A DNA stretch of 64,000 nt from Ulota crispa (lineage: Eukaryota; Streptophyta; Bryopsida; Orthotrichales; Orthotrichaceae), in NCBI GenBank assembly GCA_963920765.1, contig OY987250.1, forward strand, positions 2,852,001-2,916,000, given 5' to 3'. The first letter of the stretch is position 1, and each line of letters starts with the position of its first letter. Positions 9,028-62,100 of the stretch are shown piece by piece. The translations under genes and the position numbers were made by a program. Under the pieces are notes generated by a model. The model did not search any database. It was given only the letters and a program-made list of their open reading frames with translations, and was not told the DNA's origin.

Positions 9028-9264
9028 ATCATGCTTGATATACTGGGCCTATTTGCCGGGTGGATTGAGGATGCCCTTCTCTGTGCATCTTTGGACATCT
9101 TTATCGGGTTTTTATTGATAGCCTTATCCATGTCAAGCTCTTGAAATGTCTTGGGCTTATCTAGTAAAGATCAAAATAAATAATATTCTAACAAACTTAA
9201 AGTAGTCCTTTTCATTTTGTGTAAAATAAAAATTTTAATCATAATATTACTTTTTTATTTTTAA

Positions 9265-10534
9265 GCCCTAAAGGACCAACTATCCCTTGGGGGACAAATG
9301 GGATTATGGACATGTACTTACAACTAAATTACAATGTCTGATTATTTGAAATTTTTATGGAAGATGGGAAATTCAAAGATCTGCGTGGGCATTTGATTTT
9401 TTCTTCATTCCAACATGTATTGAAGAAGTTGTGCATGAATTTTTAGAAACTAGGGGATGGATGGCAGCCTAAAAACTTCTTTAACCCCTAAAGGACCATT
9501 GTCCGTTTGGGAAACAAATGGGATTTTAGGCAGGTACCTACAGTCTCAATTTTTGTCTTGATTTTTTGATTTTTTTTTTAAGATAGGAAAACACATTAGC
9601 TTTTGGGGAATATAATTTTTATTCCAACCAATGCTAAAGAGCAAAAGTTATGCCCAAATAAGCAAAAAAGTTGGGGAGTCCGGGCAGCAAACAAAATTTT
9701 ATACAAAAACTTGAATTTTTTTTAAAATTTTATTTACTTGTAGATTATATCTTTGTCTACCTTTGATGCTTTGATTCATTCCATTTGGACTAGTTATGAA
9801 AAAGTTATGGACAATCTTGTTTTTTGGACAATTCAGGCATCCTCTTGAAAAAGTTACTTATAAATGTTATTTTTGAATACAAATTTAACAATTTTGTAAA
9901 AAAAATTATTGGAAAGGGTGAAGATTGCTTGCTAGAACAATCTTGCCATTAGGATTATTGTGTTTCAATTCCATTGCAAGGTTATTAACAATCTAAGTTT
10001 TTGTTCAATCTCAAGCCTTCTTCTATTTAATGTTATTTTTAAGAATGAAAATTAAGTAATTTTTGTTTTGGTTTTTTTCCACAGATTCTCAACTCAATTC
10101 CCCGCCATAAAAAAATCAACTTCAAAACTCCGTGGTGCAAAAACTTTAAGTCGAAAAAGTTTAAAGTCAAATAATCTAGTGGTGCAAGGTGCAAAAAAGC
10201 TTGATTTTTACACTTTAAACGCAAATATCTTGCAATCTGTGAAGTCAAAGTTTTTAAGTTCTGAATGACACATTCTAATACAAGTCTAGTACAAGAGTGT
10301 ATGGTTAGCTATGCAAAAAGACCAATTTTCAAACTTTTTTACTCTTTGCCATAGAAGTGGCAGTTATGAGTGTCTTTTGACAAAATAAAGGCTACGGTCC
10401 TTTAGGGGTTAAAAGTTACAATTTTTTGTAAATTTTTTTTTGACATTGGTTCTTTAGATCCATATATATGTGGGAAGCTCTAGATCATTCAATTTTAATT
10501 GGTAAGATGAAAGTTATGAGAAGTTTTACTTTGC
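9265..10534. mobile_element. TTAA element, family A copy 1, split by a nested insertion
   Basis: It starts after TTAA (9261-9264) with GCCCTAAAGGACCAAC. It matches the reverse complement of the family A copy at 33533-34465 through the GGGATTNTGG and TTCTTCATTCCAACAT blocks. The match stops at 9480, where element B1 is inserted, and resumes after 10412 with GGTTCTTTAGATCCATATAT against GGCTCTTTAGATTTATACAT. It then fades near 10530, where a family C element begins, so its own far end is lost. No transposase is encoded. Confidence 0.75.
9485..10408. mobile_element. TTAA element, family B copy 1 (nested in family A)
   Basis: A 924-bp element with termini CCCCTAAAGGACCATTG and CGGTCCTTTAGGGG is flanked by TTAA on both sides (9481-9484, 10409-10412). 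It resembles the copy at 16872-17781 along its whole length, e.g. TTCAATTCCATTGCAAGGTT and AATCTAAGTTTTTGTTCAAT in both. TTAA duplication with CCC-starting ends is the pattern of piggyBac-type elements. That superfamily assignment is inference because no transposase is present. Confidence 0.8.
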
Positions 10535-11090
10535 GGATATTTTAAGTTTGTTTTGAAGTTTATTTTCAACATCAAAAGTCCAATTTTGAAGATGAATGTT
10601 GATGATTTTTCTACTCAAGATTTTGTACAAGAATGTTTACTACAAAATGGAGTTGTTTGGTGTTGAAAGATCTTGAAAATGAGCCTCAAGTATAGTAGAG
10701 CTTGGAGAAACATCCACATTAGAAATTCATTTAAAATATATACTTGAGTAGATTTTGAAAACCGTAATTTGATTAAAGTTAAACATGTAATGACCTTAAA
10801 TCTCATATTTTTTTGGTGACCAGCTTTTTAGACTTGACATGTGAAATGAGGATTGGAAGACTTCAAGCCACTATTGCAATTTTAGCATTCTCATGTTCAA
10901 ACATTACAATCTTTCAAACTACAAGTGATGTTGTTATGTTTTCCTTTTCTATGTAATATCTAACATGTTTTAGTTTAAATTTGTGTGATTACAATTGAAT
11001 AAACCTTGATGAAATATATGAAAGGGTTGATTGATTATTCCATATCATGGAAATTCCAAAAAGCTTATAAAGACCTTAGGCATTTAGGGG
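10535..11090. mobile_element. TTAA element, family C copy 1, truncated on the left
   Basis: The right end reads GGCATTTAGGGG before TTAA at 11091-11094. The body matches the copies at 24985-25628 (opposite orientation) and 35247-35893, with shared blocks such as TTTTAGACTTGACATGTG and AGATCTTGAAAATGAGCCTC. About 100 bp of the left end present in the other copies is missing at the junction with family A. Confidence 0.75.
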
Positions 11091-11094
11091 TTAA

Positions 11095-12865
11095 AAATGT
11101 TATGGTATGAAGTTAGCTTCAACGTTCAATTCTAGCGTCCTTCATACTTTAATCCAATTGTTTTTTGTGAAAGCTAAGTTGCAAACATGCGTCTTGAGCA
11201 CCAAAAGTGTGATGAATAGTGTCATTAAAGAGCAAATGACAAGCTACCACATTGAAAAGATGGACAACAAGTTGAAAATAAAGTCAAAATTTCCCTTGGG
11301 TACTCCCTTGGGCAATGAGAGCCTTTTTACTAAAATTTGATCATCTAAGAAATTCTAAATGAGTTTTTGCCCTAATTTCACTTGGAATGTTTTTCTAGTA
11401 CAAGTTAGAATTTGTTCATAGTTGAATTCTCTTTCATTCATAATGATTTTTGGTCATATGTTGGAGCTAATTTGTTTGTTTGTATTAGGTGAGAGCTCTT
11501 TGATAGAGGCATTGCAAGCTCATTTGTAAAATTGTGATCATGAATTAAGATGGGGAGTCATCAGTTCAAAAGTAACAACAATAAGCACTAAATTATCATA
11601 GGTGGTTGTTTTCCATTTTTGTAGCCAAAAATTGTCATTTTTGTACATAGAAATTGTCATTTTTGCATTAGACATTTCTAACAGCTCCAAAAAAAATCAA
11701 AAATTTCATATTCATCCACACTCAATCACAAATGTTTTAATATCCACAAGGCTTTTTTGGATTATTTTTGGCAACACTAATTAAAAGCCTTGTAGTTTAA
11801 GATCATTTAGTTACCATTTTGTTTCAATGTTTAATAATGATCTTATAAGGACAATTTCAAACCCTCAAAAATGGCATCATGAATCAAGAAAAGTACCCTC
11901 AAGCATTTAGAAGTTGACCTTTGAGCGCCCCGGCCATGAGTCCAAAAATATTGCCACGGGGGACCCCTACTCAGAATCATATCCCTTGCTGAGTTGATAC
12001 TAAGAACTAGCAAACTTCACTACTGAATCGGCATGAACGGGTACAAGATGCGATTTAGCTAAATTTTCTATCAAGATTGCACGATGGAATGCTAAGATTA
12101 TAACAGTCAAAGCCTCATTGAAATTTGTGGAGGGGATGGAATTTTGTGGATTTCTAGACTTTGAGGTGTTGGGTTGGTCATAAGAATATGGCTGATTTCC
12201 AAGCTGATTTTGCCAAAATCAACACAATAGGTGGGAGAAACAATTAGGGCTGTGCTGTCACATTTTCTGCAAGTTTTGACCATTGCAAGGCTGCCAAATT
12301 TTACCTCAAAGCTAGGAGCTAGGCATTGCAACCAAGGGATGGACCTGACAGCATGTATAAGTGCTACTAGTATGTAGAAAGTGGGATCTACAGAACGATT
12401 GCATTCAAGTGTGCAAGGTCCTGCCACCGTATGCCAACTTCTACCAATCACAAACCAATGGTCTCTAGTTGTCTTGGTTGCTGAAATTGCAAAATGCCAA
12501 ACCAGCTTAGTAGTCTTGCGGATCATGCTCCAAAATCCACCAAACCTAAACGGGCTCTGTCTGTGATCCCACTCCGTCTCATCACAATCCCTAACCCCTA
12601 AGCCCAAGTGCAATCCTCAACAAAGTCCAAGCTAATCTCCGCCCAAGAGACCTTGTTTTGTAATTTGCAGCAACAGGATCTTGCCCATGGAGCGCTCAAG
12701 GATTAAAATTCCAATGTTTGAAAAGACCAAAATGAAGGTTTGCAAATTCTTAATTATACAAGCAATCTTTTTTTGCTACAAATGACAAAAATATCAAAGT
12801 AAAAAGAAACCTCTACAACTATCAACAGATACGCCACAAATTCTAAGCTAGGTGCATCCAACTCC
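11095..12865. other. Intergenic DNA; one 168-codon ORF of unknown meaning
   Basis: No gene is recognised. The largest open frame is 12107-12613 on the minus strand (168 codons, Cys/Trp/His-rich, starting MHLGLGVRDCDETEW). It lies in locally GC-richer DNA and resembles no family I know. It could be a decayed gene or transposon fragment. The remaining ORFs are short and AT-biased. Confidence 0.35.
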
Positions 12866-13512
12866 TTTGAGCTTGATGTATCCAACATCTACAAGAGTAC
12901 AAGCTTGATGAATCCAACATCTAAGAGCTTGATGTATTTGATGTCTCGAAGCTTGATGTATGTAATGTCTCCCAGCTTGATGCATCTGACAACGCCGAGC
13001 TTGATGCATTTGATGTCTCTGAGCTTGATGCATTGGATGTCTCTAAGCTTGATGCATTGGATGTCTCTAAGCTTGATGCGTTGGATGTCTTTGAGCTTGA
13101 TGAGTTGGATGTCTTTGAGCTTGATGCTTTGAATGTCTTTGAGCTTGATGCGTTGGATGTCTTTGAGCTTGATGAGTTGGATGTCTTTGAGCTTGATGCT
13201 TTGAATGTCTTTGAGCTTGATGCGTTGGATGTCTTTGAGCTTGATGCTTTGAATGCCTTTGAGCTTGATGCGTTGGATGTCTTTGAGCTTGATGCGTTGG
13301 ATGTCTTTGAGCTTGATGCTTTGAATGTCTTTGAGCTTGATGCTTTGAATGTATTTGAGCTTGATGCATTTGATGTCTTTGAGCTTGATGAGTTTGATGT
13401 CTCCAAGCTTGATGCATCTAACGCCTCCCAACTTGATGCAATGGATGTTTCCGAGCTTGATGAGTACAATGACTCTGAGCTTGATGCCTGTGATATTTCA
13501 AAGCTTGAGGAT
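12866..13512. repeat. 24-bp minisatellite, about 26 units, open in several frames
   Basis: The unit GAGCTTGATGCNTTGGATGT plus CTTT repeats with a 24-bp period. It is degenerate at both ends (12866-13020 and 13390-13512) and nearly uniform in the middle. The plus strand reads as (LDVFELDA)n in a 217-codon frame (13033-13686); the minus strand reads as IKLKDIQS, SSSKTSNA and HQAQRHPT repeats in other frames. The same degenerate pattern continues into 13513-13700. Open frames on both strands are what any 24-bp array lacking internal stops would show, so I do not call a protein. Confidence 0.85.
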
Positions 13513-13699
13513 TTAGATGTCCTAGAGTTTGAAGATCCTGACGTCGTAGAGCTTGAGGATTCCACATCTCACAAGATGAGGATCCCAAAGTATCACAGCT
13601 TGAAGATCCCAAAGTCCACAAATTTGAAGATCTCAAAATCTCAATGTTTGAGGATCCTAGAGTCCAAGCTCTTGATAATAGCTTAGCCCTCAAGCGTGG

Positions 13700-14997: not shown

Positions 14998-15248
14998 CAA
15001 ATTTTAAAAGTTGATGAGAGTTTTGGTATAAGATTTTCTCAAAATTTCCAAAATTGCCTAAGCAGTTCAAAAGTGTTTGGGTAGTATAATTTTTGAGTTG
15101 AGTATTTGATTGAGGAAAAAATACATTTCCACTTCAAAAATACATCTTAAGTAACAATTTTGAGAAAATCCAATAAAATTTGACTTTGTATGACACTATT
15201 ATTTGAGTTTTGAAGTGCACATTAAGCAAACACTTGGTCCTTTAGGGG
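14998..15248. mobile_element. TTAA element, family D, partial copy
   Basis: The right end ACTTGGTCCTTTAGGGG precedes TTAA at 15249-15252. It aligns with the right third of the full copy at 18491-19440 through AAAAGTTGATGAGAGTTTT, TAACAATTTTGAGAA and ACTTGGTC. No left end is found. The stretch 14373-14997 upstream is AT-rich and shows nothing I recognise. Confidence 0.65.
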
Positions 15249-15339
15249 TTAAAAATCCAATACAATGCCTGAATATTTTCACATATTCACTTTCTATCAC
15301 ATGGCAATTGTTCATTGTCATTGACACAAAGATAATTTA

Positions 15340-16796: not shown

Positions 16797-17980
16797 TTCA
16801 GGTTGCCTTACCCTAAAAAGTTATCTCATGACTCAATGATTGTCCACTAGGAGGAGCATGCAACTCTTTAACTCCTAAATCCCTATTGTCCCCTCAGGAG
16901 ACAATAGGGATTTTGGGCAATTACCTACAACCTCAATTTTTGTCTAGATTTAATGAAACTTGTTTGGAAGATATGAAAACACATAAGCTTTTGAGGAATA
17001 TATAATTTAATTCCAATCTACGCCTAGGAGCAAAAGTTATGCCCATATAAGCACATATTTATGGAAATCAAGTAGCAAACTTTATTTTACAAAAATTTGG
17101 TTTTTTTTTTCTATTAGGTTATAGTTTTGTCTACATTTGAAGCTTTGATTCATTCCATTTGGACTAGTTATGAGAAAATAATGGACACTCTTGTTTTTCA
17201 GGCAATTCAAGCATCTTCTTGAAAAAATAACTTATAAACTTCATTTTTGAATGCAAGTTTAAAAAGTTTTCAAAAAAAATTATTAGAGAGGGTGAAGTTT
17301 GCTTTCTAGAACAATATTGCCACTAGAATTATTATGTTTCAATTCCATTGCAAGGTTATTAACAATCTAAGTTTTTGTTCAATTTCATACATTCTTCTAC
17401 CTAATGTTTTTTTTAAGAATGAAAATTAAGTATTCCTTGTTTTGATTTTTTTCCACAAATTCTCAACTCAATTCTCCACAATACAAAAAAAAACATCAAA
17501 ACTCTATGCTGCAAAAAAATTAAGTTAAAAAAGTTCAAAGTCAAATAATCTAGTCATGCAAGGTGCAAATTCTTTTGGTTTTTACACTTCAAACACAAAT
17601 ATCTTGCAATTTGTGAGGTCAAAGTTTTTGAAGTTTTTTCTCCACATTCTTATACAAGTCAAGTACAAGATCCTATGGTTAAATATGCAAAAATACCAAT
17701 TTTCAAACTTTTTACTTTTTGCAATAAAAATGGCAGTTTTAAGTATCTTTTGACGGAATAAAGGCCCCAAGGCTTTAGAGGTCAAACACCGAGGTTTTAC
17801 ATAGTTTATGACCTAAATGTTGTTAATTTGTTTATAGTAATTTTATTGTTGTTGCTGAGCCCTTAAAAAGTTGTGTATTGTAATAGTTATTGAATAGATT
17901 TACTGTAGTATCAATAGATGATTATGTAGTGTAAAATGTCAAGCAACAAGTGTGAGGCAACCTAATTGCAATATTTAGTG
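16797..17980. mobile_element. MITE family H copy 2, interrupted by a family B element
   Basis: The left part is 16797-16867 (CACTAAGCATTCAGGTTGCC...) and the right part about 17786-17980 (...TAGTGTAAAATGTCAAG...ATATTTAGTG). Between them sits element B2. Removing B2 restores the order seen in H copies 1 and 3. The break falls at CTCTTTAA, where H copy 1 reads CCCTTTAAATATT. Confidence 0.8.
16872..17781. mobile_element. TTAA element, family B copy 2 (nested in MITE H)
   Basis: It starts after TTAA (16868-16871) with CTCCTAAATCCCTATTG and ends CTTTAGAGG before TCAA (17782-17785), a one-base variant of TTAA. The length is 910 bp. It follows family B copy 1 throughout, with a subterminal palindrome ATTGTCCCCTCAGGAGACAAT-like near its left end (about 16885-16905). 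Confidence 0.8.
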
Positions 17981-18395: not shown

Positions 18396-19744
18396 AGGTA
18401 GTGAGCTCAAATTGCCATTCCTCTCTTGTAAAGTGTTCCATACGTAGCTCAAGAATGGATATGAAGTGGTTCTTGAATGGACCTTTTTAATCCCTAAAAG
18501 TTCAAGGGTGTTTTTGAGAAAAATTCTTAAAAACTGTCAATTTTTAATGCATTGCCCAAAATCAAAAATCAAAACTTTTTTCTCAATTTCAACCATACAA
18601 AAGTTTGTAAAACCAATAAACCAATGTGTGCAAAAAATTTCAGCCCATTTGACCATGCGGATTGCATGATTATAACGTTTGAAGTGAGAATAAACAACAA
18701 TTTTTTTTCATTCCTGCAAAATAAGGACAACAAACTTTGAGTCTTCCTAGAGTAAAACTTTTGGTCTACACAAATTTGAGCTTTTTGACCTTTCACAAGT
18801 ATATGATGTTGGGTTCACTTTTAAAAAAATCAGACGCAAATATAGAGTTTATCTTATTCTAAATCACCCTCCAATGCAAGGAGGTTTAGTGAATAGGCAA
18901 CACATTAGTCATTCTTTCATGATTTCTTGTGCAATGTGGAAGAATTTTATTTGAAATAGGAATGGTGAAAAGTTGGAGAAAAACATTTGGAATATGTGAA
19001 AAATAGTTTCAAGAGCTTTAGATTTGTAGATTGAAAGATAATAGGGCTTGAAGTTAGAGGATTTTGTTTTCCTAAAACCGCCCAAACACATGGTTAACAA
19101 AGTTTGACTCCCTTCAAAATGTGATGTGAGAGCTGAATTTTTTTTTGACAATTGTACACCATGTTTTTTTACTTACATTCTTGCCAAATTCCAAAAGTTG
19201 ATGAGAGTTTTAGCATAAGATTCTCCAAAGATGCTCAAATTGCCCAAATTGTCTAATTTCTTTTGGGCAACATAACTTTTGAACCTGGCATCCAATTAGG
19301 GAGAAAATAAGATTTTTACATGGGGGATACATGTTTCTACCTTGTGTAACAATTTTGAGAACATCCAATAAAAAATAACTCCATATGACCCTACCCGAGT
19401 TTTCAAGTGGCTGTTGAACAACCACTTGGTCTTTTTGGGGTTAAGTTATAAAAGAAAAAATGTATCTAATTCCAAGAGCCAATCATACTCTTCAATTTCA
19501 CCTCATCTCTTTACAACTTATAAGGGAACAATTTATGGGAGACCTAGAGCCACAAATAGATGCCTACTACAAAAAATTCTCAAATATCAACGATTCAACA
19601 ATACTTCAAAAAATACAAAAAAAATTGTGGTACATTTGGCATCTATTTCTCTTTGACTAAAAATTAAACAAAAAAATGAGCTATCTCAAAAAACTCATCA
19701 AAAGATAGACCAACCTTAAAGTGTCACTTTTAGAGCACATTACT
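18396..19744. mobile_element. MITE family K copy 2, interrupted by a family D element
   Basis: The left part 18396-18486 (AGGTAGTGAGCTCAAATTGC ... CTTGAATGGACC) and right part 19445-19744 (ATAAAAGAAAAAATGTATC ... TAGAGCACATTACTT) together match the reverse complement of the intact copy at 56545-56954. The insertion point reads TTTTTAA/TTAAGTTATAAAAG here and CCTTAGTCATAAAAG in the reverse-read intact copy, so a single TTAA-like site was present before insertion. Confidence 0.8.
18491..19440. mobile_element. TTAA element, family D, full-length copy
   Basis: It is 950 bp and lies between TTAA at 18487-18490 and 19441-19444. The ends are TCCCTAAAAGTTCAAGGG and CCACTTGGTCTTTTTGGGG, imperfect inverted repeats. 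There is no open frame of note; the ORFs at 18466-18796 and 18909-19151 are short and AT-biased. A truncated relative lies at 14998-15248. Confidence 0.8.
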
Positions 19745-21475: not shown

Positions 21476-21479
21476 TTAA

Positions 21480-21831
21480 CCCTTTAGTGCCGAGCAGGTC
21501 ACCATGGCCTGCCCCAATTGTAGAAGCTATAATGTTTCTCACTGTGTCCACTTGTAGTATTGTTCTTAAAAGTTGCAAAAGTCTACAATGCATGCTTATT
21601 TCATGAAAATTGCACTAAGGGCAGCTTGGGACCTAACACAGTGCTTTTGAAGTTCTCACAATTTGTGTTACCAAAAAACATGAGAACGTTATGTGAGGTT
21701 GATTTTTGCCTTTCATGATGGACCATTTGATTATGGTCACTTTTGAAAAAAAATTAAATGAAAAACGGCTTTATCTTGCCATACAAAAGGCTTTTTAGAA
21801 ACCAGAGGACGAAAAACGTCCTCCTCAACTT
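21480..21831. mobile_element. TTAA element, family G copy 1
   Basis: It lies between TTAA at 21476-21479 and 21832-21835. The left end CCCTTTAGTGCCGAGCAGG matches, in reverse orientation, the far end of the family G copy at 60445-60792. The right side, AGAGGACGAAAAACGTCC, corresponds to AGAGGACGTTCTTTGTCC there. The right terminus is decayed. Confidence 0.65.
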
Positions 21832-21835
21832 TTAA

Positions 21836-24401: not shown

Positions 24402-27400
24402 ATGACGATGCCCCAAGTGGCTTCGAATTATGGCGGCACTGCGGTGCATCATGAGAAGCCTGGAGTCAAAGGAGGCTGTAGTGAGAGCGGCAGTGGTACA
24501 GCCAGTCCGTTGTATACGATGCAAGCGTATTTCGAAGGGAAGATGAGTGTGGAGGAGTTCGCCCGGTCCGAGGAGGAGAGGCCCACCGTGGCGCACAACG
24601 AGTTCGACGAAACGCTTCCGGTTATTGACGTCGGTGCTCTTCGTACCGGTACTCCGGAGGAACGGCAAGTTAACGCTGCGCGTATGCTGGACGCCGCTAA
24701 GTCGTGGGGGTTTTTTAAGATCACAAACCACGGCGTTCCTTTGCAAGTGGTATGTACACTTACCGCAAACTGAACTTGCAATACGTCGGCATAAGCTAGG
24801 AGGTCCATAAACAGACCATTTATTTAGCTCATCAATGTTAGTAATAATATTTGAAGGAATATGTCACGTTTTTTTTTTGTAGATAGGGAATGTATTTAGA
24901 ACATGGTCAGTTTATGGACCTCCTATCTTACATCAAGAGTACTCATACATCTTTCTTTTCATTCTCAATTCACTCCAATCTTAACCCCTAAATGTCCAAG
25001 GTCTTTCTGAATTTCTTGACGTTTTCAACAAAGTGAACAATCAACCAACCTTTTCATAAATCTCATTAATTGTTTTAAAAATATAAGTGTACAAATTTAA
25101 ACTTGACATGTTAGAGATTACAAGGAAAAAGAAAACACAACAATATCACTTGTAGTTTGAAAGATTATAACGTTGGAACATGAGGGTGTTAAAATTGCAA
25201 AATTGACTTGAAGTCTTCTAATCCTCATTTCACATGTCAAGTCTAAAAAGTTGGTCATCAAATAAATATGAGGTTTAAGGCCATTACATGTTTAACCTCA
25301 ACCAATTTACAATTTTCAAAACCTACTCTTGTATTTTTTTTAAATGGATTTCTAATGCGGATTTTCTCCAAGCTCTAGTGTATTTGAGGCTCATTTTCAA
25401 GATCTTCCAACACTAAAAAACTCAAGATTGCAGTGGACACCCTTGTACAAAATTTTGAATAGAAAAATCATGAACTTTCATTTTCAAAATGAGATTTTTG
25501 ATATTGAAAATAGACTTCAAAACAAACTTGTGTTCCAAAAAAAATACCAAAAATAGTAATTTGATAAGATTTTATTTGTCTTTTAAGTTTTGCAAACACC
25601 CAAATTGAGTGCCTTGGGCATTTAAGGGTTAATCTTTATAGAATCAGGACATGGCAATTTCTCTTTGATCTTTGAAAACCACATTCTCTAAAGAAAGATT
25701 GAAATTTTTTTTTCTTTACATTTAGAGAGAAAGAAAGGAATTTTCTTCCTTGCTTGTTTTTGTTCAATTGTCATTATTCTCTTTTAGATGTTGCTCCTCT
25801 TGTTTTAAAGGAAAATTTCATGGACACCCCTACAGTTTGCAATATTTACACAAATACCTTTGCTTTTTCAGAAATTGCACAAATACCTTTGGATCATAAA
25901 TTTTTTAGGCATTTATTATTGGTTGTGCGAGTACTTCCTTCATGACTAACATTGAAGAAGGGAATATAACAAAACAAGAAATAAGCAACATGCACATAGA
26001 GGAAGAAAGGGAAGTGGAATGCACAACAAAACGAACTCCTGAAAATTTTGGTGCAAGGGTAATTGTGCAATTTCTGAAAAAATAGGGGTATATATTGCAA
26101 ATATTGCAAACTTCAAGGGCATCCATGAAGTTTTCCCTTCTCGATTCACCTCATTCTCATTTTTCAAAGGATGAGGACAAGGCAATTTCCTCTTGGTTCT
26201 TAAAGATTGAATGTTTTGGATTTTGGATTTTTTTTTTTCTCTTCACCTTTAGAGAAGAAGAATGGGGTGAAAAAATCTTTGTATGCTAATTTTTCACCCT
26301 TGCTTATCTTTGTTTAACTGTCCCTTTTTCTTTTTAGTCTCCATTCTCCATTCTATACCACCCACAAAATGAAAATTACACCTTCTTCATGAAGAAGTGC
26401 TCCCATGGACTCCTACTTCCACTCCTAAACTTCTCAATCTTCACAAAAATTTCAATCTTGGAGAAGGTTTGACTACCGCTATTATCCAATTTTGTTGCAT
26501 GACTGTACTTCACTAATCACGAAGCGTTACAGTTGGAACTGTTGCTAGAAGATGCAAAAACCAAAAACATTGGTTTTTGCTTTAGGATAACTAACAACGC
26601 CATTGAATATTCCACCTTCTGAGATTTTTATTAAACCCAAGGGAGGAGTTGAATTCTGAGAATCTTTTTGGTTTTTGAAACCCGTTTTGCATGTGACAAA
26701 GTTCACGTGTATCACCCAAGAGTTGTATCTTTTGATAGATGTTTTAACTCTAATACCCACTTTTCTGTTGTCCCGTCTGAAGTTTGTTGTTTTTACAATA
26801 TGGTCAATAGAACTGGTGATATGAAAATGGTCAATTCTTTGGCTGTTTCGGGAGTTAAGAGCAAGAAGACTTGGTGGTGGTGTGCGTGAGCGCAGGTGAA
26901 GCAGGTGGAAGCGAATGGGAAGGAATTCTTTGCGTTGCCGATGGAGCGCAAGCTGGCAGTGCGAGCTCCGGATTTTGTGTTCGGCTACACCGGTGGGTCG
27001 CCCATCAAATGGAAATCCAAGTGGTGGTTGGAAGGCCTCATGATCAAGGTAATATGCCAAAGTTGTACTGAAAAAATGCTGGTCCCAGTCATCTTGCTAC
27101 CCTAATGTACAAAACTGAGAGTTGTTTAAGAAAAAGCGATCTCCATCAAAGGAGACTACGTGTAAAAAACACTAGTTATTAGTGCAGGTGAAGCTCTCTC
27201 AAGCTACACTAGAAAATACTTAAGTTTTTTATGTGATACTAGTGAGATGGTCTGAATTAACCACCCTAAGAGTACACGGGCTGGGGTAGCATGTAGATTT
27301 TGGAGCTTTTGATGTAAAATGAATTAGCCTGAGCAGATCTCAGAAACAAGATATTCAGTTTTGCATGTTTTTTTGTTTTTGTTTTTTTTGTCTCATCTGA

Positions 27401-30400
27401 ACAGCTACATGAACTGGTTCAAAAAATTGCACAAAAATCATGAAACATCCAATGATTCAAATTAGTCACAAAATTGTAGACTAGGTAAAATTAATAAATA
27501 AATAAATCTAACCACATGTGAACGTATTTCATCCATTTCACACCGCTCCTACATGAAGCGTTTGAAGTCATTTATCAACCACATTTTGGGCGCTGGGAGG
27601 GGTGAAGTTTATGAAACTACGTACTCAGTAGTATATTTATGTTTGAATTTAGATTTTTTTTTGTACCAGGAGAGCACTGGAATTAACTTATCTGCAGTCT
27701 GAATTATAAACCGACCTTCTTCTCAGCCAAGTTGAGTTTGGTTCTTCTCCCCAGTAGCCAAGCTGACTATTTTGGTGACTGGCTCTGTGGCAGGTCACGG
27801 ATGAAGCATTGGATGACTTGGTGGGTCAAGTGTTTCCCGAAGAGGAGGAACAAGCTGCACGATTCAAGTAAGCTCCTTCCCTTTCGAGTGGGGTCAAGTT
27901 TACAACTTTAAAAATCCGAGTTTTTTCACTGGAAAGGTGAGGAATGCTATACCGCGAGCTGTGAGTTTAGATTTTTGAATCAAAATATTAAATTCACCTA
28001 CAATTGTGAATATAGGACCCTGCAATTGTGCATTTTATTATTTTCATCTTTCAATCAAACTTGCTGTTTTTAGTTTTTCCTCTGAATTGGAGCTCAAAAT
28101 CCATCCCCGGTCACAAAATCTTGGCCTACCACTCACAATTCACTGTTTTAAGCTCATAGAATAGCGTCGTCCTTGGAAGGGTTAGGTTACTTCATTCTGG
28201 TAATACAAGAAGGTTTGGGATTGATTTGTAAGTTGTTTTCACAAAGCCTCAATTGAGGGTTAACAAATGATCCAACTATGTGATTGGATAGGCAATTGGA
28301 TCTTATTATCTACATGTGTGCAAATGGTTAGAAATGCCATATTCATTAAATTGGGAAAATCAGATTCTCAAGTTGTATTTCACCTTAAATTCAATGTTTT
28401 TTTTCTAGCGTTAACCCCTGAGTGTCCCAGCAACTAGATTCTGGTTGCTCCAGATTTCAAAGGCGTGTTTGTGGCATTGGATATAATTTTTTGGTCTTGC
28501 TATAAACTACAATTATGAAGGCATTCAAGTTGTTCATGTCAATGGCATAATGGCAAGGAAAGCCAAATTGTTGTACAAGTGCTGCAAGAGATTTGATTTG
28601 GTGAAACACCATATGGGACAACATGGGCGTGGTGGCAAGCAGAGTTTTATAGGTTGCAATTGATTAATATCCCTTGCAAGCTTCCTTGTGTAAGCTTTGT
28701 GGTGGCAGGAAAGTTGTTGGCAAGGGTTCAAGCATGTTCTAGACCCTTATTATGACAATCGTCACCAACTGTGTCGGTCATTGTTTTCAGTGCATTAGCA
28801 ATTTGAAGCCCTAAACCTTAACATAAAAAGAAGTGCAATCTTCATTCATTTACAAGTGTGTGCATTCACATCTAATCTTGCTACTCACAAAATTTAAGAT
28901 GAATCTAGGGCTTATAGAATTTTGTATAAATCATCAAATAGCAACTACCTACCAAAAAATGAGATTTTGTCATCACATGTTGTTTGATCAAATGTTATAA
29001 TCTCCCATCTCCCACAGTGAATTCTTCCCAAAATTTGCAAGCCATTTCTAAGTAGATGTTCCACTATTTTCAATGGTCACTTTTTGTGGATCATCCAATT
29101 GACCGAGATACAATGCATCAAAGTTATCGGTCTCCAAAAACCCTGATTTTGGTGAATACTGCATGGGCACTCAGGGGTTAAACGTCAAACTTGAAGGTAT
29201 CAAATTCAGTTTGAGCCACTAAGATTTTGTCCCTTACAAATGCCTCCTCTCAAGTGAGGACACGTGTACCCAAAAATGCTGCTTAAACCTGGGGCTCAAT
29301 TTTAGTTGATCACCTTAAACCTAATTTATTCCCAAAATTGGGGTTTCTTCCCAAATTAATGAACATGGGGTTTAGAGCTGTTTACAGATGAAAGGCTTTC
29401 CATTTATGTAAAAATCTCAAAACATGTTATAATTTTGTTTTAGATACCAGGCCTCCTACTAGGGGATTTGAGAATTCTTGAGTTTGGAATGTATGAGGAG
29501 TTGTCACTGAATTCACAGGGTGGGTGAGTTATTTTTTTGGTAAACAGGCAGGATTTGCAGGCGTTTTTCCGGCCCATGCACGAGCTGTCGAGGTTTGTAG
29601 TCGAGGAGCTGACGGCGGCGCTGGGGCTGGAGCGGGACACGTACACGCGGCTGGAGTCGGTGAACTCGAATTGCACGGGGCGCATGAACCACTACCCGGT
29701 GTGCACGGACCCCGACAGCGTGCTCGGCATCCCGGGCCACGCCGACACGCAGATGCTGGGCATTCTGTTCCAGGACCACGTGGGCGGGCTGCAGATCCTC
29801 AGAGACGGGCGCTGGGTGGGCGTCCGCCCCGACGACTCCTCCTTCGTCGTCAACATCGGCGACACCTTCCAGGTCCTCCCAAACCCCCTCAGTCTCTTCC
29901 GTCGCCGCTTCCTTCCCTTCTCCTGTTCAAAGCTTGCAACCTTCGGCGTCAGTTTCTGTCAGCCTCGGTCTCTGCGTCAGTAGGGATAAGGTGAAAGCAC
30001 CCATACCCGATAAATTAAGCGATTTGCAACAAACTACAAAAAGTTTGAGGCAATAAATAAGAAGATAAGAAATATTGGGATTGTAAATATTTCATAGTTT
30101 TATTTGCAATCTGAAATTATTATGAATTTTGGGAGTGAAAAAGTGTTATGCACCCATTGCCCAACCTCTAAATTCATGTAATTATGATGATAACCAAACT
30201 ACATTTCGCTCATTACTTCCTACTTCACTTTGGGACACGTGGCATGATTTGAGTGGTCCTAATCTTGAAAAAGATATAAGATTGCATTCCAAAGCACTTA
30301 TTTCTAGTGATGTTGGAAATAGCCCACCCTATTGGTTGGATAGGGGTGTTGTTGACTATGGGTGCTTCTACCTTAATGCCAATTTTCTTATATTGATGAA

Positions 30401-32834: not shown

Positions 32835-32836
32835 TA

Positions 32837-35242: not shown

Positions 35243-35246
35243 TTAA

Positions 35247-35893
35247 CCCTAGGATGACATTGAGGACAAAATGTGTCCTCAACCAATTTTCAAAGTTATA
35301 TAAAACCTTACCAAAATAATATTTTTAGTAGTTTATTTTTTTGAAAGATTCTTTTTGAAGTTTAGTTTCAGCTTCAATAATCTAATTTTGCAAATGATTG
35401 ATTACAATTTGTGTATTCAAGATTTTGTGCACGGGTATCCATTGCAATCTTGACTTTATGTAGTGTTGAGGGTTCTTGGGAGTGAGCCTCAAATACACTA
35501 GATCTTTGAGAAAAAATCACATTAGAAATTCATTTAAAAAAATTGTAGAGTAGATTTTGAGAAGTCATAAATTGATTGGGGTTATGCATGTTAGGCCCTT
35601 TAACCTCATATTTTTTTGGTGACCAACTTTTTAAATTTGACATGTGAAGAGAAGATTGAAAGACTTCAAATCACTTTCAGAGTTTTAACACCCTCATGAT
35701 GAAACATTATAATCTTTCAATCCGTAAGAGACATTGTTGTGTTTTCTTTTGTAATGTGATCTCTAACATGTCCAATTTGATTCTACATAATTACAATTCA
35801 AAAAGAATTGATACAACTTATCAAAATGTTGGATTTTTGATCAAATTAAAGCAAATCCCTAAATGCTTAGGAATATCCAGGGTCGTTTTGGGG
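35247..35893. mobile_element. TTAA element, family C copy 3
   Basis: It is 647 bp between TTAA at 35243-35246 and 35894-35897, with ends CCCTAGGATGACATTGAGG and CCAGGGTCGTTTTGGGG. The body matches family C copies 1 and 2 over the GTGAGCCTCAAATACACTAG, ACATGTGAAGAGAAGATTG and TCTCTAACATGT regions. Confidence 0.75.
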
Positions 35894-35929
35894 TTAAATG
35901 CAATTTGCTGGTTTATGTTGTCACGCACC

Positions 35930-37285: not shown

Positions 37286-37951
37286 ACCTTAAGTGGTGAA
37301 GTACTTTTTTTTTTTGCTTCTAAACTTACTAGCACTAGCTCCCACTAGAACAAAGCCTTGTGTTCTACCATCCTTATATTGGTGAGCTTCAATAATTTAA
37401 ATGAAATCTCTTATAAAGTAGACATGAAGGTCCTATTTGCACCTAAGTAATGAATGGTAAAAAATCAATTCCCAAGGATTATGGATTGTTCCAAAAGGCC
37501 ACCTTTTGAGGTCATAACCTTTGTAGGTAGTATAAAGTGAGAGGATTAGTGATGTAATTATATCATCTTTGTAGTGGAACACATTTGACTATCAGCACTT
37601 TACACAAGATTTTGGTGGTGCAAAACGATATTTGTACTGATATCATTCTTGAGATTCCTTTGTTTACCCTTAAATTTTATGAAGTGAATTATTGTACCAT
37701 TTCATTTCCTTGCAGCTCTCATTGGCAAATGAATCATTTCTAATTTCCCTTTAATTAGGGAGTAAATGGAGCCTAAACTTATAATGTAACATGATGAAGT
37801 TACGCTTATAGGCACTTGCATGCTTTTCATCTACTAAAAAAATGGAAACTCCATGAAAAACAAAGTCAATTTTTTTGGTTTGAACAATTGAAGACAACTT
37901 TTTGTTGTTGTAAATATTGTGTTTTTTCTTATTTTCAGATTGTCTATTTAA

Positions 37952-38827
37952 CCCCTAAACGCCCAACATTAGGAAAAATATGGGGCCTGCAAAAGCCTTT
38001 AAAAACAAATCCAACCCCCATTTTTTTGGTTCCCAATGTGGGGAATTAGCCCTTGCTGATGGCCGGAAAAAAAGAATTAAAAAAATCAAAAAAATCAAAC
38101 AAAAAAAAGTCTAAGAAAAAAATAAGAAACATTTTTGATTTTTTGATTTTTTTTAAATTAAAATTTTTGAAAAAGCTGACATGGCATCAATGATGCCACA
38201 TGAGCTTGCTCATGATTGTATTGGAAACTAGATTCCCATGGCTAAGGACCCCCCCAAACTCAAGGCTTTATTGGGGCCCCATATTTTTCCTAATGGGGGT
38301 AAGGGCAAAACATAAATGTGTTCTAAAATGATACTTTTGTAATTTTGATGAAATTTGCTTCAAAAGAGAAAATAAGAGTCATGATGTTTAGTGATTATCC
38401 ATATAGTCAAACATTCAAAAAAAAAATTTTGGACTCTTGTTTAATGAATATAGAAGCATTTACCGTTTAATATTCATCAAAATTACAAATTTTATTCATA
38501 GAACTTGAAAGTTGGTATGATTGGTTAAAAATATACATTCTATTCAAAAGTTCAAAAATGCAATGTTTTTGATGGAGAGAACATCATCAGTTTCCCAAAA
38601 TAGTAAAATTTGTAACACTAGCAAATATTGAAGTGTTTTCCTTTGAAAAAATCTCCTTGGTGGAGTTTAACTTGGATTGACATGATTCAAATTGGGTTGG
38701 AAAGTAGACTTGATTCTTTATATGAAAATATTTTTAATTTTTTCAAAAAACATTTTCTTTTTTTTCATTTCGAACAGCTCACAAAAAAAGGCAGTGACCA
38801 GAAAATGATCAATTGGGCATTTAGGGG
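37952..38827. mobile_element. TTAA element, family F, carrying a nested MITE
   Basis: The element is 876 bp between TTAA at 37948-37951 and 38828-38831, with ends CCCCTAAACGCCCAA and ATTGGGCATTTAGGGG. A second element occupies 37967-38295 immediately inside the left end, so family F itself is about 547 bp. Confidence 0.8.
37967..38295. mobile_element. MITE with 21-bp perfect inverted ends, nested in family F
   Basis: The outermost 21 bp on each side are perfect inverted repeats; the first 20 read CATTAGGAAAAATATGGGGC. Inside are A/T-rich runs and a small palindrome, GGCATCAATGATGCC (about 38184-38198). No target duplication is evident. Perfect ends suggest it is among the youngest insertions in the window. 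Confidence 0.8.
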
Positions 38828-38959
38828 TTAAAAGACATAATGCAATATTTATAGAACAAGGGCTCTATTTTTCTCAAAATCAAAAGTCAACATCTATTAT
38901 CCAAGAAAGAGTTCATCTTAAAATTAAAAAAACTAAAAGTTCCAATTTGAATATAGTTA

Positions 38960-40949: not shown

Positions 40950-40961
40950 ATCGGTTGACCG

Positions 40962-46714: not shown

Positions 46715-46952
46715 TCTTAATGAGATTTTTCCATCACATGTTTGATGAAATGTCATAATCTCCCATCTCCCACAGTCAATTCTTCCCAATTTTTACAAGC
46801 CATTTAGCCATTTAATATGTAGGTGTCCCATTGTATTTGATGCTCACTTTTTGTGGATAATTTAAAGGATTGAGAATTTGAGATATGATTCATCAAAGTT
46901 GTAGGGTCTCCCTAAACCATGATTTTGATGAAATGGCTTGGGCACTTAGAGG
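46715..46952. mobile_element. TTAA element, family E, right-hand fragment
   Basis: It ends GGGCACTTAGAGG before TTAA at 46953-46956. It matches the last 240 bp of the family E copy at 28415-29177, including TCATAATCTCCCATCTCCCA. The left end is missing. Confidence 0.65.
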
Positions 46953-47261
46953 TTAAATGTGACATCTATGATTCTAGTTCCTACTCTATAATGAGTTTCT
47001 TTTGTATCTTGACCCATAGATGCCTGAGATTTTTTGACAAAGTTTTGCACCATTTAATACGTTTGTTTCACAGTAACTTTGCTTCTTTAATGCAATACAT
47101 CTTTTGTCAAGGAACAATCTAGATTTCTAGTTGTATCGTTTATTTCTAATAGGGTATTATACATATGCATAAGAAACTATTAGCATTTTATGTTTCTTTG
47201 TGTAATGAATGCTTATCATCACCCTTTTAGAACTTTTTCATTGGAGGAAAGATGGTTGTAA

Positions 47262-47320
47262 CCCCTCACTGCTTTAGGGGTTGGAATCAATGTGTTCTTA
47301 GATTCTTAAGCATTGAGGGG
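47262..47320. mobile_element. Very short TTAA-type element or relic
   Basis: A 59-bp segment runs from CCCCTCACTGC to GCATTGAGGGG, an inverted repeat with one extra base, followed by TTAA (47321-47324) and preceded by GTAA. It also contains an inner TTTAGGGGTT. It may be an internal-deletion product reduced to little more than two ends. Confidence 0.45.
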
Positions 47321-47324
47321 TTAA

Positions 47325-52440: not shown

Positions 52441-52457
52441 GCTTTGTATTAATAATG

Positions 52458-55470: not shown

Positions 55471-55473
55471 TCC

Positions 55474-56175: not shown

Positions 56176-56190
56176 GCTGTGGTTGATCGG

Positions 56191-59100
56191 ATGGGCGCGA
56201 AGAAGGAGCCGCTGGATTACTTGTCGGAAGCGTGGCGGGTGCTACGCTTGTCAGTGCGGTGTCCGAAGCGAGTGGTCACATGGGACGCGGTGGTGTTGAC
56301 GGCCGCGAGCCCGGCGCAAGCGGAGCTCTATCAACGCCATTTGGAGCAAGCGCAGGTGAACGGGACCATCGCCAGAGAAACAATCGTCCTGGCAGTGCCT
56401 GACCCTCTCGGCAGGCGCATTGGCTCTGGAGGCGCTACAATCCACGCATTACGAGCCTTATCACACCATTTGCAAGTAAAATCGAAATCCTTGCCATGTC
56501 CCTCACCACATCTCTTAGAATATGTATTTGCAAGCTGATGTATAAGGTAGGTAGCTCGAAAAGCGGCACTTTAAGGGCTGATCTGCATTTTTATGGGCTT
56601 TTAAGACAAGAAGATTTTTTGTTTAATTTTCAGACAAAGAGAAATGGATGTCATATGTAAGACAATTTTTTTCATATTTTTTAAAGCATTATTGACTTGT
56701 TGATGAAATTTCAAAGTTTTCTGTAGTAGGTACCTATTTGTGATTTTAGGTCTCCCATAAACCGTTCCCCTGCAACTTATAAAGAGATGAGGTGAAATCA
56801 AGGAGTGTAATTGGCTCTTGCAGTAAAATACACGTTTTCTTTTATGACTAAGGAGGGTCCATTCAAGACCACCTTATATCCATTTCCATATCCATTCTTG
56901 AGGGGCTTATGGGACGCCTTATATGAAAGGAGACGTAATTCGAGCTACCTACCTTACTGATCGAAATCCTCCTCTCACCACATGTCTTTAGAATATATGT
57001 TTGCAAGCTGATGTTTACTGATTTGGCTGTTTTGATTGATCAGAACCGTGTGGAGACATCTTCATGTCGCCAAGGTTTGGCAGCGATGGCGCCGCAACTC
57101 GGTTGCGAGCGAGTGTTGCTGCTGCACACAGGCGGCGACTCGAAGCGAGTGCCATGGGCGAATCCCATAGGCAAAGCGTTTATACCGCTACCGTTTTTGG
57201 CTGGAGATGATCCGGACGGGCACATCTTCACGCTATTCGATCACATTCTTGCCATTTCTGCTTCTGTACTCCAATCCTTTTCCAGCCAAGGTAACGTAGA
57301 GGATACTCTTTTGCAGCATGTGAAAGTGTTTTTTCACAGAGAGATTAGCTTAGAGGCCACTGGAGAGTTTAAGGGATTTAAATATTCATTGAAAGGAATT
57401 TTTCATGGATACCCCTGAAGTTTGCAATATTTACACAGATACCCCTGCTTTTTCAGAAATTACACAAATACCCTTGGACCAGAATTTTCAGGCGTTTGTT
57501 TAGGGTGTGTATGCCACTTCCCTTTCTTCCTTTGCGTGCACATTGCTTCTTTTTTGTTTCATTACATTCCTTTCTTCAGCGTTGGTCATGAAGGAAGTCC
57601 GAGTACAACAAATAAATGCCTAAAATTATGGTTCAAGGGTATTTGTGCAATTTCTGAAAAAGCAGGAGTATCTATGTAAATCTTGCAAATTCAGGGGTAT
57701 CTATGTAAATATTTCAAACTTCAGGGGTATCCATGAAATTTTCTCTTCATTCAGAGGTTAGTAAAATAGCACATGCTTGGTATGATTATACTCTCGGTTT
57801 TTCAAGTAGTCTCACATGACAGACGTGTTTTGTGTATGCAGGTGGCTTGCTGATCATGACGGGCGACGTCCTCCCATGTTTTGATGGTTCTTCCATAGCG
57901 CTCCCTGAACATGGTGCTGTTGTCATCACTGTTCCTGCTTCACTGACGAGAGCCTCAAAACATGGTGTGATCTTGGGCTCTCAGGTTGGCACTGCTCGCA
58001 ATGAAATCAAGTTCTTTGCTCAGGGAGTATACTACAAGGGTACACTGTCAATTCAGTCATTTTTTTGTCAATTAGGACATTTTTTTGTCAATTCAAACAC
58101 TTTTCTGTCAATTTGGACACATTTAGTCAATTAGGACGTGCCAATTTAGACACTGTTTCCTTGTAGTAGGACTTTTATTTTCTGACATTTTTCCATTTTC
58201 CCACTCACAGAAACATGAAAAAGCAGTTTGCGACCTGCCTCTTGTGATGGACCTGCTTCAGAAGCCCAGTGCAAGGGAGATGGTCGAGAAAGGAGCAGTT
58301 TTGGCAAACGGAACAGCTTTGTTGGATACCGGTATCTTTGTTGTACGAGGAGCTGCATTTAGCGACCTGATTGACTTTGCAGTCCAAGATCCAAACCCGG
58401 TGACAGACGTTCTTGCAACAGGGGACGAAGTGGGTGGGCTCCCTCTCTCTGTTACTCTCACTTGAATCAGGCACCATGGCCAGCTTGTGATGGTCTGAAT
58501 TTTATCTTCATAATCTTCTGTTGTGTGACGCATTGCAGGTGAGTTTGTATGAAGAGATTGCTGGAGCGTGGGTGTCAGCCCGACACGGATGGCTTGCATC
58601 TCGCCCGCTTGGGAAGAAGCTCATCGATGCACTGGGATCTAGCAAACTGTACCATCACTGTGCTGGTATGATACCAGCTCCCACTCTTGCATTCTTACAA
58701 AGCAATATGCCTTCTGTTAGGTGCTTCTGCTTCTGCTTGTGTCATTCCTGCTTTTATGGTATTTATTTGATGGGAAATTTTCATGGATACCGGTACCCCT
58801 GAAGTTTGTAGTATTTTCATAGATACCCCTGCTTTTTCAGAAATATCACAAACACCCTTGGCCCAAAATTTAGGCTTTTGTTTTGTTATGCATGTCACTT
58901 CCCTTCTTCCTTTGTGCGCACTTATAACAAGAAAGAAGTAGTGTGTGCACAAAGAGAGAAAGGAAGTGACATGCATAACAAAAACAAACGCCTAAATTTT
59001 TGGGTTCAAGGGTATTTGTGATATTCCTGACAAAGCAAGGCCATCTATGAAAATATTGCAAACTTCGAGGGTATCCATGAAATTTTCCCGTATTTGATTA

Positions 59101-62100
59101 TACTTCTGTACTCGTTTTTGGATGTGCGCACGCATCGCATAACAAGAAAGAAGTAGTGTGCGCACAAAGAGAGAAGGAAATGACATGCACAACAAAATAA
59201 ACGCCTGAAAATTTTGGTTCCAGGGTATTTGTGCAATTTCTGAAAAAGCAGTGGTACTTATGAAAATATTGCGAACTTCAGGGGTATCCATGAAATTTTC
59301 CCGTATTTAATTATATTTGTGTACGTGTTTTTTGGATCTAGAGGAGTTGGAGTTTCTTCATTTCGGCACATCCAGCGAAGTGTTGGACCACCTATCCGAG
59401 GATCACAAGGGCCGCATCTTACGACACCAGTTCAGTGCGATTACAAGCTCCATGATGTGCCAAGTGTCGCCATCAGCTTGTATCATAGCCTGTGACGTGC
59501 ATCCCAATGTGTCGGTGGGCGAGGACAGCTTGGTGTTCAGTTGCACGCTTGTTGAGGGAGTAAGAATCGGAAGTCGGTGCGTGGTGACAGGGCTGACATC
59601 ACAGTCACCAAATGCAAGATTCACTCTCCCCGACCGGCATTGCTTGTGGCGAGTGCCCGTGTCAGTTCAAATACCAGCAAGCACGCAGCAGGTCGTACTT
59701 TGCTGTGGCCTGGATGACGATCCAAAGCTCTCATCTGCATCTGGAGGCACCTTTTGTGGGAGGAACTGGAGTGCATTTCGCACTGAGCGAGGCATTACCG
59801 AAGCTGATCTCTGGAGTACTGTCGATGTGGAAACTCAAACTAAAAACCTCTGGAATGCGAAGCTATTTCCAGTGGTGGGAGCTTCGGAGCCAGGTCTCAG
59901 CTTTGCCATGTGGTTGATGGGGGTTCAAAGCCACGTCACGCTCCTCAACTCGTGGCGTGCCTGCCAGCGCATCAGCCTCGGCGAGCTTCACGGCCTCATC
60001 AACTTCAACGAGCTGAACCGGGAAATTAGTGAGCACGTGGCTGATCTGGCTGGCGGGTTTCTCAAGGCGAGCGTCGTTTGTGGATCATTTGGTCGCAACT
60101 TTGCTCAGTTGTGTCGCGGCGTGGCGCTTGGAGCGAATCGAGAATCTGTTGTGAAGACGCTGGATGAATCACGACGGTTGCTTGTTGTGGAACTAGCGAA
60201 GCGAGACGCGGGGAAGGGCATGATTGTGCCCTCAAGCAGGGTGTGTCAAGCTTTGACTGACATTTGTGAAGCCTCTGGAGATTCTCATTCTGTCTCTGAT
60301 GTTAAGGTCTGGGATGCTGTTGCTCAGGAGACTTCTGCTGCCGTGTCTCAAAGTCATCAAGGTGAGAGTCTTCGTTGACCCTCTCGTTTCTTCTTTTTTT
60401 TAAGCAACTTATATGCAGTTCCATGAGAATCTATTGTTTTTTAACCATTTAACGCCCAAGAGGACGTTCTTTGTCCCTTGCATAACAACAAAATACTCTG
60501 TAGCTATTTTTCATCCGATTTTTTTCAGAAGTGATCATTGATACATGTTGCATCATGGAAAGCAAAAAAAAACATTCTCACCAAATGCACTCATGTTTTG
60601 TTTTTAAGTAACTCAAATTGTGAGAAGATTCAAAGACACGGTGTTAAGTCCCGTGCTGCTATACTTGCAGTTCTCATGAGGTCAGCAAGCATTTTTTACT
60701 TCTGCAACTTTTAGAAACAGTATTATAATGGGTGGGCACTTGCCACACTATTGTAGAGGGGCAAACACAGTGACTAGCTGGGCGTTCAAGGGTTAAAATG
60801 AGTGTTGATCAACACAGCCTATTGAATTTATACGTTTCACACAGCTAAACTGTGGTGTTAACACTGGATACTCATCGTTGGTTCTTCATCGTGTTTGTGG
60901 ATTTTTGCTGCAATTGCTGGAACATGATTGTTGCTGTTGTTGTTGTTTTCTGGTTGGGTGCTTTTACACAGAAGAAGAGGTGCAATGGAATTCGAGTACA
61001 AGCGCAACAGGAGTCGTGCACTCGAGGGTTGAGCTGCCTGTACGGGTAGACATTGTAGGTGGATGGAGCGACACTCCGCCCTGGAGTCTGGAGCGAACTG
61101 GATGCGTGCTGAACATGGCGGTGCAACTGGAAGGCTGCTCGCCATTGAGCGCGGACGTGACGCTCCATCGTCACGGCGCAGGAGTCACCATATCTGACGA
61201 GGATGCAAACTCAGTCACCATTGAAGACAGGAGCACCATCCAGCCACCGTTTGAATCCGAGGACAAGTTCCGTCTCGTGAAGGCCGCCTTGGTTGTCACG
61301 GGGTTCACCAGCAGCAGCAATAGTGGAAGCAGCAACAGTGGAAGGCTGGAGATTTCGACATGCTCGAAGGTGCCACGTGGCAGTGGGCTGGGAGCGTCGA
61401 GCATCCTCGCCGCGGCCGTGGTGAAGGGGCTTCTGGAAGTGAAGCACGGCGACACCCGCGCTGAGCACGTGGCGTGGCTTGTGTTGGTGCTGGAGCAGAT
61501 CATGGGCACTGGAGGTGGCTGGCAAGACCAGATTGGGGGTGTGTACCCCGGGATCAAGTGCACCACCAGTCAACCCGGACGGCCCATGTCTCTCCACGTG
61601 GAAACCGTGGTTGTGAGTGATGCCTTGAGATCAGAACTCCAGTCTCGAATGTTGGTCGTTTTTACAGGACAGGTAAAAAGAAAACTCCTTTCAACACCTC
61701 TTTCAAAAGGTTCGAACTTCTCATTTATTTTTATAGGAAAATTTGATGGATACCCCTGAAACTTGCAATCTTTGTACAGGTGCCCCTGGTTTTTCAGAAA
61801 TTGCACAAATACTCCTGGATCATAATTTTCAGACGTTTGTTTCGTTATGCACGCTACTTTCTTCTTGACCAATGTTAAAGCAAGGAGTGCAATAGAACAA
61901 AAGAGAAGTGTAATAGAACAGAAAAGAAGCAGCGTGCGCACAAGGGAGAAAGAAGTGGTATGCACAATAGAACATATGCTTGAAAATTATGATTATGTGT
62001 AATTTCTGAAAACTAGGGGTATTTATACAAATATGACAAACTTCAGTCGTACTCATAAAATTTTCCTTTTGTTTCAAAGAAAATTTGATGAATACCCCTG

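Follow-up and report, generated by a model that had tools for sequence, protein, structure and literature searches.

Which transposase family lies behind the many short repeats that end alike at TTAA in a plant genome? The question is raised by a stretch of 64,000 nucleotides (C9:2852001-2916000, hereafter the window) in a genome of 275 Mb and 157 contigs; C numbers denote contigs and L numbers opened genome loci. The repeats in the window are almost certainly nonautonomous members of the piggyBac superfamily, resembling miniature inverted-repeat transposable elements (MITEs), in a bryophyte-type nuclear genome. Judged from sequence comparison, they appear to belong to an abundant population of piggyBac MITEs with mostly decayed transposase-bearing relatives, a known kind of element in an unusual host and at an unusual scale.

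Ends in the window were rescanned by plain mismatch counting, with 20 Markov shuffles of the window as controls. All eight exact window sites of CCCCTAAANGNCC are preceded by TTAA, and TTAA+CCCCTAAANGNCC occurs in no shuffled window at zero or one mismatch and 0.1 times per window at two. A looser rule, TTAACCCYTNANNGNC, matches 14 ends exactly and another 6 with a single mismatch, compared to 0 and 0.5 per shuffled window, a density of 3 ends per 10 kb at one mismatch or fewer. When at most two mismatches per end and three per pair were allowed, nine inverted pairs of the CCCYTNANNGNC type were found at TTAA or near-TTAA, versus 0.017 per shuffled window (60 shuffles). Five of these pairs show no mismatch to the rule at either end, 60441-60796 departs from it at a single base, and the remaining three have two plus one mismatches. 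With five single ends and homologous remnants, the window holds about 16 to 18 elements or remnants, in agreement with the roughly sixteen counted in a preliminary description of this DNA, whose shortest element of 59 bp is recovered as the 59-bp body of 47258-47324. TTAA had also been placed next to each preserved end; this holds at the eight exact CCCCTAAANGNCC sites and fails at the left flank of 47258-47324, which reads GTAA. The elements have the hallmarks of MITEs, namely, a length of about 1 kb or less (67 to 958 bp in the window, TTAA included), inverted ends, no coding frame, and high copy number, and no stop-to-stop frame of 110 or more amino acids lies inside 9481-10412, 24981-25632, 28411-29181, 33529-34469, 37948-38831, or 60441-60796.

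The same ends pervade the genome. Counted on both strands, CCCCTAAANGNCC occurs 9,939 + 10,023 times (19,962) and the reversed pattern, our control, 17 + 24 times (41); TTAA+CCCCTAAANGNCC occurs 8,386 + 8,365 times (16,751) and its reverse never. TTAA is thus kept before 83.9% of CCCCTAAANGNCC ends, as befits the piggyBac target site, and the genome-wide search for end plus TTAA proposed earlier comes out in favor of the proposal. A broad rule, TTAACCCYTNANNGNCC, matches 15,685 + 15,633 ends (31,318), compared to 4 + 5 (9) for its reverse, from which we infer on the order of 15,000 elements with two ends each, decayed ends being missed.

Two empty sites record the target duplication. The site of 9481-10412 is empty in L005, which reads CTTCTTTAAAAATTAC where the window reads CTTCTTTAA, the element, and TTAAAAGTTAC, an exact duplication of TTAA. 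Conversely, L055 2801-8108, which encloses a piggyBac transposase domain (PF13843), is inserted with an exact TTAA duplication in a copy of the window family at 37948, and the window near 38668 holds that site empty (GGAGTTTAACTTGG, versus GGAGTTTAA, the element, and TTAACTTGG in L055). Back-to-back elements sharing a single TTAA (or TCAA) were observed at L041 8926-8929, L044 507-510, and L051 7347-7350, an arrangement expected when the TTAA beside one element serves as the insertion site of the next.

Transposase copies and their ends

The genome was searched with the profile PF13843 (DDE_Tnp_1_7), and 116 of 528 first-look candidates were scored, giving at least 120 matches on contigs C1 to C11 with a best E value of 1.3e-73. 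Open frames in L042, L043, and L051 match the profile at 4.1e-67, 8e-60, and 1.3e-47, respectively. The L043 frame also matches the PDB structures of piggyBac (6x67, E value of 4.1e-20) and piggyBat (9c0f, 5.8e-17), and its TVDECM and TCDNYFT align with TIDEQL and TCDNWFT of piggyBac, the first two catalytic-aspartate motifs. The three motifs VDE, DN[FYW], and GVDxxDQ, which we take to be the catalytic aspartate motifs of piggyBac transposase, are all recognizable with at most one substitution each in 17 of 34 stretches, 15 of which have all three aspartates (L029 has GVE and L043 GVN). In the other 17 at least one motif is absent; L036 is among them owing to a reading of the wrong strand.

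Transposase copies are diverse, with a median pairwise identity of 34% (the wrong-strand read of L036 included) and a maximum of 81%. Nonsynonymous divergence (dN) is far below synonymous divergence (dS) for L012/L022 (0.115 versus 0.89) and L028/L030 (0.16 versus 2.4), and therefore these lineages would have evolved as proteins before decay. Protein evolution thus seems to mark the old lineages and decay the young copies. Several diverged transposase clades coexist, with differing end variants where ends are readable. No PF13843 match was found in 14 control genomes, a result uninformative on plants because the five named ones are prokaryotes.

To which ends do these transposases belong? Twelve PF13843 loci of 10 kb, picked by high score or few stops and not at random, were opened for ends. 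In five of them (L039, L041, L044, L050, and L055), the transposase is framed by matching inverted ends next to TTAA, which delimit elements of about 5.0 to 7.5 kb. Their ends are CCCCTCATCGCC in L039, CCCCTAAATGCCTA in L041 (14 of 14), CCCYTGAGCGCC in L044, CCCTTGCAYG in L050, and CYCCTTGAGGAC in L055; the first three fit the rule exactly, L050 has one mismatch per end, and L055 has one and two. Terminal inverted repeats starting with CCC or CCY, as in piggyBac, are present in these five loci and in the nine window pairs. Another five loci (L043, L051, L052, L053, and L054) have one plausible end. An end at L040 7437 was rejected as it belongs to a neighboring short element, and one at L042 8263 (one mismatch) was left out of the count.

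Several loci have terminal sequence in common. L041 and L054 have 33 of 34 terminal bases in common. CCCTTTANNGACCRTGGTTG is common to L043, L051, and L053, adjoining TTGA in L051 and with one C changed in L053, and these three copies cluster with L013 and L027 in the transposase tree (support of 1.000). L018 is a 90% copy of L039, and the match stops within one base of the right TTAA. In the 4-kb PF13843 loci, the strict motif was found at three or fewer mismatches only once (L030), in a scan that undercounts mismatched ends; ends are few there because the elements exceed the flanks covered.

Some of these elements carry a further open frame upstream of the transposase, 430 to 464 amino acids long (L041 5802-7091 and L054 2784-4175), with a related sequence at about 94 to 300 in L022. 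The frames have no Pfam match; a conserved beginning common to the three loci is followed by low-complexity sequence rich in Q and E. The L054 and L041 frames are 36.6% identical over 82 amino acids. Proportions of nonsynonymous (pN) and synonymous (pS) differences are 0.29 and 0.61 over 66 codons for L054/L022 and 0.52 and 0.61 over 143 codons for L041/L022, with L054/L041 saturated; because this evidence is mixed, it is only suggestive of coding. In these piggyBac elements, the frame may encode a second protein or else be an N-terminal exon.

From transposase-bearing to short elements

The link between long and short elements can be followed in two families. The 34-base end of L041 and L054 occurs at 731 places genome-wide at three or fewer mismatches, and its reversed control occurs at none. 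Eight of the 731 were opened, taken from the listed places without mismatch, and seven of these share 544 to 589 bp inside that end with L041 or L054 at 83 to 88% identity. A facing end in six of the eight defines elements of 877 to 933 bp, and five of the eight also match the other end of L041. L060 shares the L041/L054 terminal region in two pieces at 79 to 82%. The elements of 877 to 933 bp look like internal-deletion derivatives of the L041/L054 type, and window positions 11105-11916 appear to be a decayed relative of this derivative family.

The second family is that of 33529-34469. Four PF13843 copies, L025, L026, L034, and L038, examined because of homology to this element, match its first half at 73 to 84% and terminate about 1.6 to 1.8 kb beyond the domain with ends of the CCCCTAAARGA type (one end read in each, with one mismatch in L026). 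They group together in the transposase tree (support of 0.994). A copy search with 33529-34469 scored 40 of 8,532 first-look candidates and thus returned the closest copies only: among those listed, 40 other near-full-length copies lie on C1 to C10, 39 at 91 to 96% identity and one at 81%, and the remaining family comparisons give about 73 to 91%. Because the query itself started at the element end, these copies are unfit for testing the boundary and did not serve that purpose. On this homology, the two large short families are internal deletions of transposase-bearing copies or share long termini with them.

L039 330-1056 is a near-perfect palindromic element with two 338-nucleotide arms that are 98% complementary and TTAA+CCCCTAAAGGCCC at its left end; it is a variant of this kind of element, a foldback with long arms.

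Several observations weigh against the piggyBac reading or narrow its reach. Only their ends and flanks link the elements at 28411, 37948, 47258, and 60441 to piggyBac. Rule ends are so common, at 1.1 exact ends per 10 kb genome-wide, that a single one beside a transposase counts for little. No convincing ends were found at 2 of the 12 opened loci (L040 and L042), the candidate empty sites E2 (window 33529 versus 52530) and E4 (L053 versus L054) were not clean, and L009/L018, with dN of 0.09 and dS of 0.15, show little constraint. Activity and mobilization in trans are what we infer, since stop-free stretches number only 10 among the 120 PF13843 matches listed and no intact full-length transposase gene was delimited among the copies examined. 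Finally, a TA duplication within a target that is always TTAA gives identical filled and empty sequences; the 4-bp stagger therefore rests on homology, because a shorter stagger within TTAA looks the same in sequence.

Could another family have supplied the transposase? Kolobok and Sola3 also use TTAA, and models of these superfamilies lay outside a profile search that covered PF13843. A share in TTAA duplication is what they have in their favor, yet PF13843 transposases lie between such ends, PF13843 copies share terminal hundreds of bases with short elements, and one PF13843 element has a TTAA-duplicated empty site, which makes this origin highly improbable. Tourist/PIF-Harbinger MITEs with their 3-bp TWA duplication or Stowaway/mariner MITEs with their 2-bp TA duplication might instead happen to sit in TTAA, and the TA ambiguity just described would hide the latter at these sites. 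Against them, the four-base TTAA stands on both sides of the elements in place of a TWA, all four bases precede 84% of strict ends, and the linked transposases are of the piggyBac family by both Pfam and PDB matches; the explanation already fails for the families linked to transposase-bearing copies, and we give it hardly any weight. Chance or interstitial telomere-like sequence, invoked because the ends contain CCCTAAA, the plant telomere unit, has a negligible probability and is refuted by reversed controls with 0 to 41 matches versus 9,939 to 31,318, by nine inverted window pairs versus 0.017 per shuffle, and by near-full-length copies on C1 to C10.

The piggyBac assignment made in the preliminary description thus gains from PF13843 copies with the same ends elsewhere in the genome and from two TTAA-duplicated empty sites, and the long transposase-encoding copies with such ends for which it called are present at TTAA. 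Its picture of one transposase mobilizing many unrelated interiors needs revision. A broad end rule is indeed shared, but more than one transposase clade is present, with end variants that differ, and the two large families that can be traced share hundreds of base pairs with transposase-bearing relatives, so that their interiors are not unrelated. Because derivatives share termini with distinct transposase-bearing copies, it is better to speak of several transposase clades, each with derivatives and variants of the end that are its own. By analogy with piggyBac elsewhere, the transposases would have recognized the ends of short elements in trans, excised them, and returned them to TTAA sites through a 4-bp staggered cut, and several clades with slightly different end rules could have brought many interiors under one broad rule.

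Elements and other features of the window

In the left part of the window, an intact nonautonomous element (9481-10412, plus strand, 932 bp) with CCCCTAAAGGACC ends and TTAA on both sides, defined by its paired ends and the site empty in L005, matches L044 8725-9638 at 83% over 935 bp. It is nested in an older plus-strand remnant of the L005 family (9261-10540), whose left end at 9261 (+) reads TTAAGCCCTAAAGGACC with one mismatch. Next follow a truncated element of the L006 family (10544-11094, minus strand), with one intact end at 11094 (-) and 81% identity to L006 over 560 bp, and the degenerate copy of the L041/L054 deletion-derivative family (11105-11916, no strand assigned), whose visible end near 11916 is mutated and which matches L041 2329-1774 at 74% over 583 bp and L059 at 75% over 817 bp. 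A candidate degenerate element (11914-12706, plus strand) abuts it and shares its TTGA; its GAGCGC-type ends have two plus two mismatches, making it weaker than the other pairs. A degenerate copy of the 9481-type family (16868-17785, plus strand) has decayed ends and 80% identity to L044 8725-9619 over 915 bp, and a degenerate paired element (18487-19444, minus strand, 958 bp) is 82 to 85% identical to L002, L003, and L051 over about 970 bp.

Further right, the intact elements are all on the plus strand. The L006-family element 24981-25632 (652 bp) is identified by its inverted pair and homology, and its right end is similar to that of L041 on the transposase side and to those of L062 and L063 on the far side. 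The CCCCTGAGTGYCC ends of 28411-29181 (771 bp) are similar to those of transposase-bearing L044. The pair at 33529-34469 (941 bp) has the terminal sequence common to four transposase-bearing copies described above, and 37948-38831 (884 bp) has the relative in L055 that is split by a transposase-bearing element at the TTAA empty here. Also on the plus strand are the short element 47258-47324 (67 bp), with ends CCCCTCACTGC and CCCCTCAATGC and flanks GTAA and TTAA, and the inverted pair 60441-60796 (356 bp), with one exact end and one with one mismatch. A degenerate minus-strand pair (35243-35897, 655 bp) belongs to the family of L008 and L039 8802-9454, at 80 to 81% over about 580 bp. The end scan added three unpaired ends: an intact TTAA+CCCCTAAAGGACC at 15236-15252 (minus strand), the rule-abiding CCCTTTAGTGCC at 21476-21492 (plus strand), and one with one mismatch at 46940-46956 (minus strand).

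Among plant-like genes, the window contains adjacent frames for fucose pyrophosphorylase and a GHMP kinase and a 2OG-Fe(II) oxygenase frame. Nested inverted repeats with arms of 34 to 143 nucleotides, 76 to 91% complementary, lie just upstream of the fucose pyrophosphorylase frame (57382-59286). Long overlapping open frames with short repeated peptide units on both strands at 12892-13683 are probably a tandem repeat. Outside the window, a perfect array with an 8-base period (L040 5872-6459, about 590 bases) lies downstream of a piggyBac transposase copy. Contig C157 (112.5 kb) is plastid-like, with the order rbcL, tRNA-Arg(CCG), accD in a stretch of 26 to 34% G+C; the best PDB match of its rbcL is 9chz, presumably hornwort Rubisco. 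Gene order, base composition, and this match together suggest a bryophyte host. An open frame at L046 1-2310 (contig C97) combines most of plastid rbcL with an unrelated protein of bacterial appearance, and L046 is probably a chimeric or contaminated assembly contig.

Known systems and significance

The elements share the PF13843 domain, TTAA duplication, and CCC-starting ends with the piggyBac superfamily as represented by 6x67 and piggyBat 9c0f. They differ from piggyBac elsewhere in the bryophyte-type plant host, in the extra upstream open frame of some, and in the many decayed clades found together. The delimited elements, at 5 to 7.5 kb, are longer than the piggyBac of about 2472 bp (PMC10813416). 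The coral CMITEs and AmiPB also have TTAA duplications, with very similar ends (CCCTTTAACGCCC and CCCCTCAGTGTCC), and they too combine MITEs with related piggyBac-like elements for which cross-mobilization was suggested; the coral CMITEs are about 100 bp long with a conserved interior, whereas those described here are mostly 350 to 960 bp, vary in their interiors, and have ends in far greater number (PMC2872659). Pokey of Daphnia likewise is a piggyBac-superfamily element with its own MITE groups (mPok), but its insertions include a specific site in rDNA besides other places (PMC4912750).

In land plants, piggyBac has been named in repeat tables of the fern Ceratopteris (1,230 copies, 122 kb) (PMC6890710) and the feather grass Stipa (1 copy, 75 bp) (PMC8319324), in the accessible parts as table lines without a link from transposase to MITE. 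Piggybac-like elements in plants are stated in passing in the available passages of four further papers (PMC8086355, PMC10140906, PMC12732532, and PMC10813416), and another mentions piggyBac merely as a tool that had still to be tried in Physcomitrella (PMC5505980). A paper on the moss Niphotrichum matched through the word "piggybacking" and does not concern piggyBac. No description of bryophyte piggyBac elements was found in the titles, abstract starts, and passages covered, which include few subscription papers.

A broader scenario, which we offer tentatively and hold to be possible rather than probable, is an old and diversified bryophyte piggyBac radiation of long elements (5 to 7.5 kb), some with an additional constrained upstream protein segment. 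Its transposase clades, with end rules that overlap and differ slightly, would together have spread cross-mobilizable MITE ends through the genome by the tens of thousands and made piggyBac a major source of plant MITEs in this lineage. That the elements are piggyBac is in itself ordinary transposon biology. At least 31,318 ends and 528 first-look transposase candidates would show that piggyBac can be a leading source of plant MITEs, in a land plant genome in which the step from transposase-bearing to short elements is visible, and the genome offers natural collections of ends and transposase clades that match, in which end recognition and cross-mobilization may be studied.

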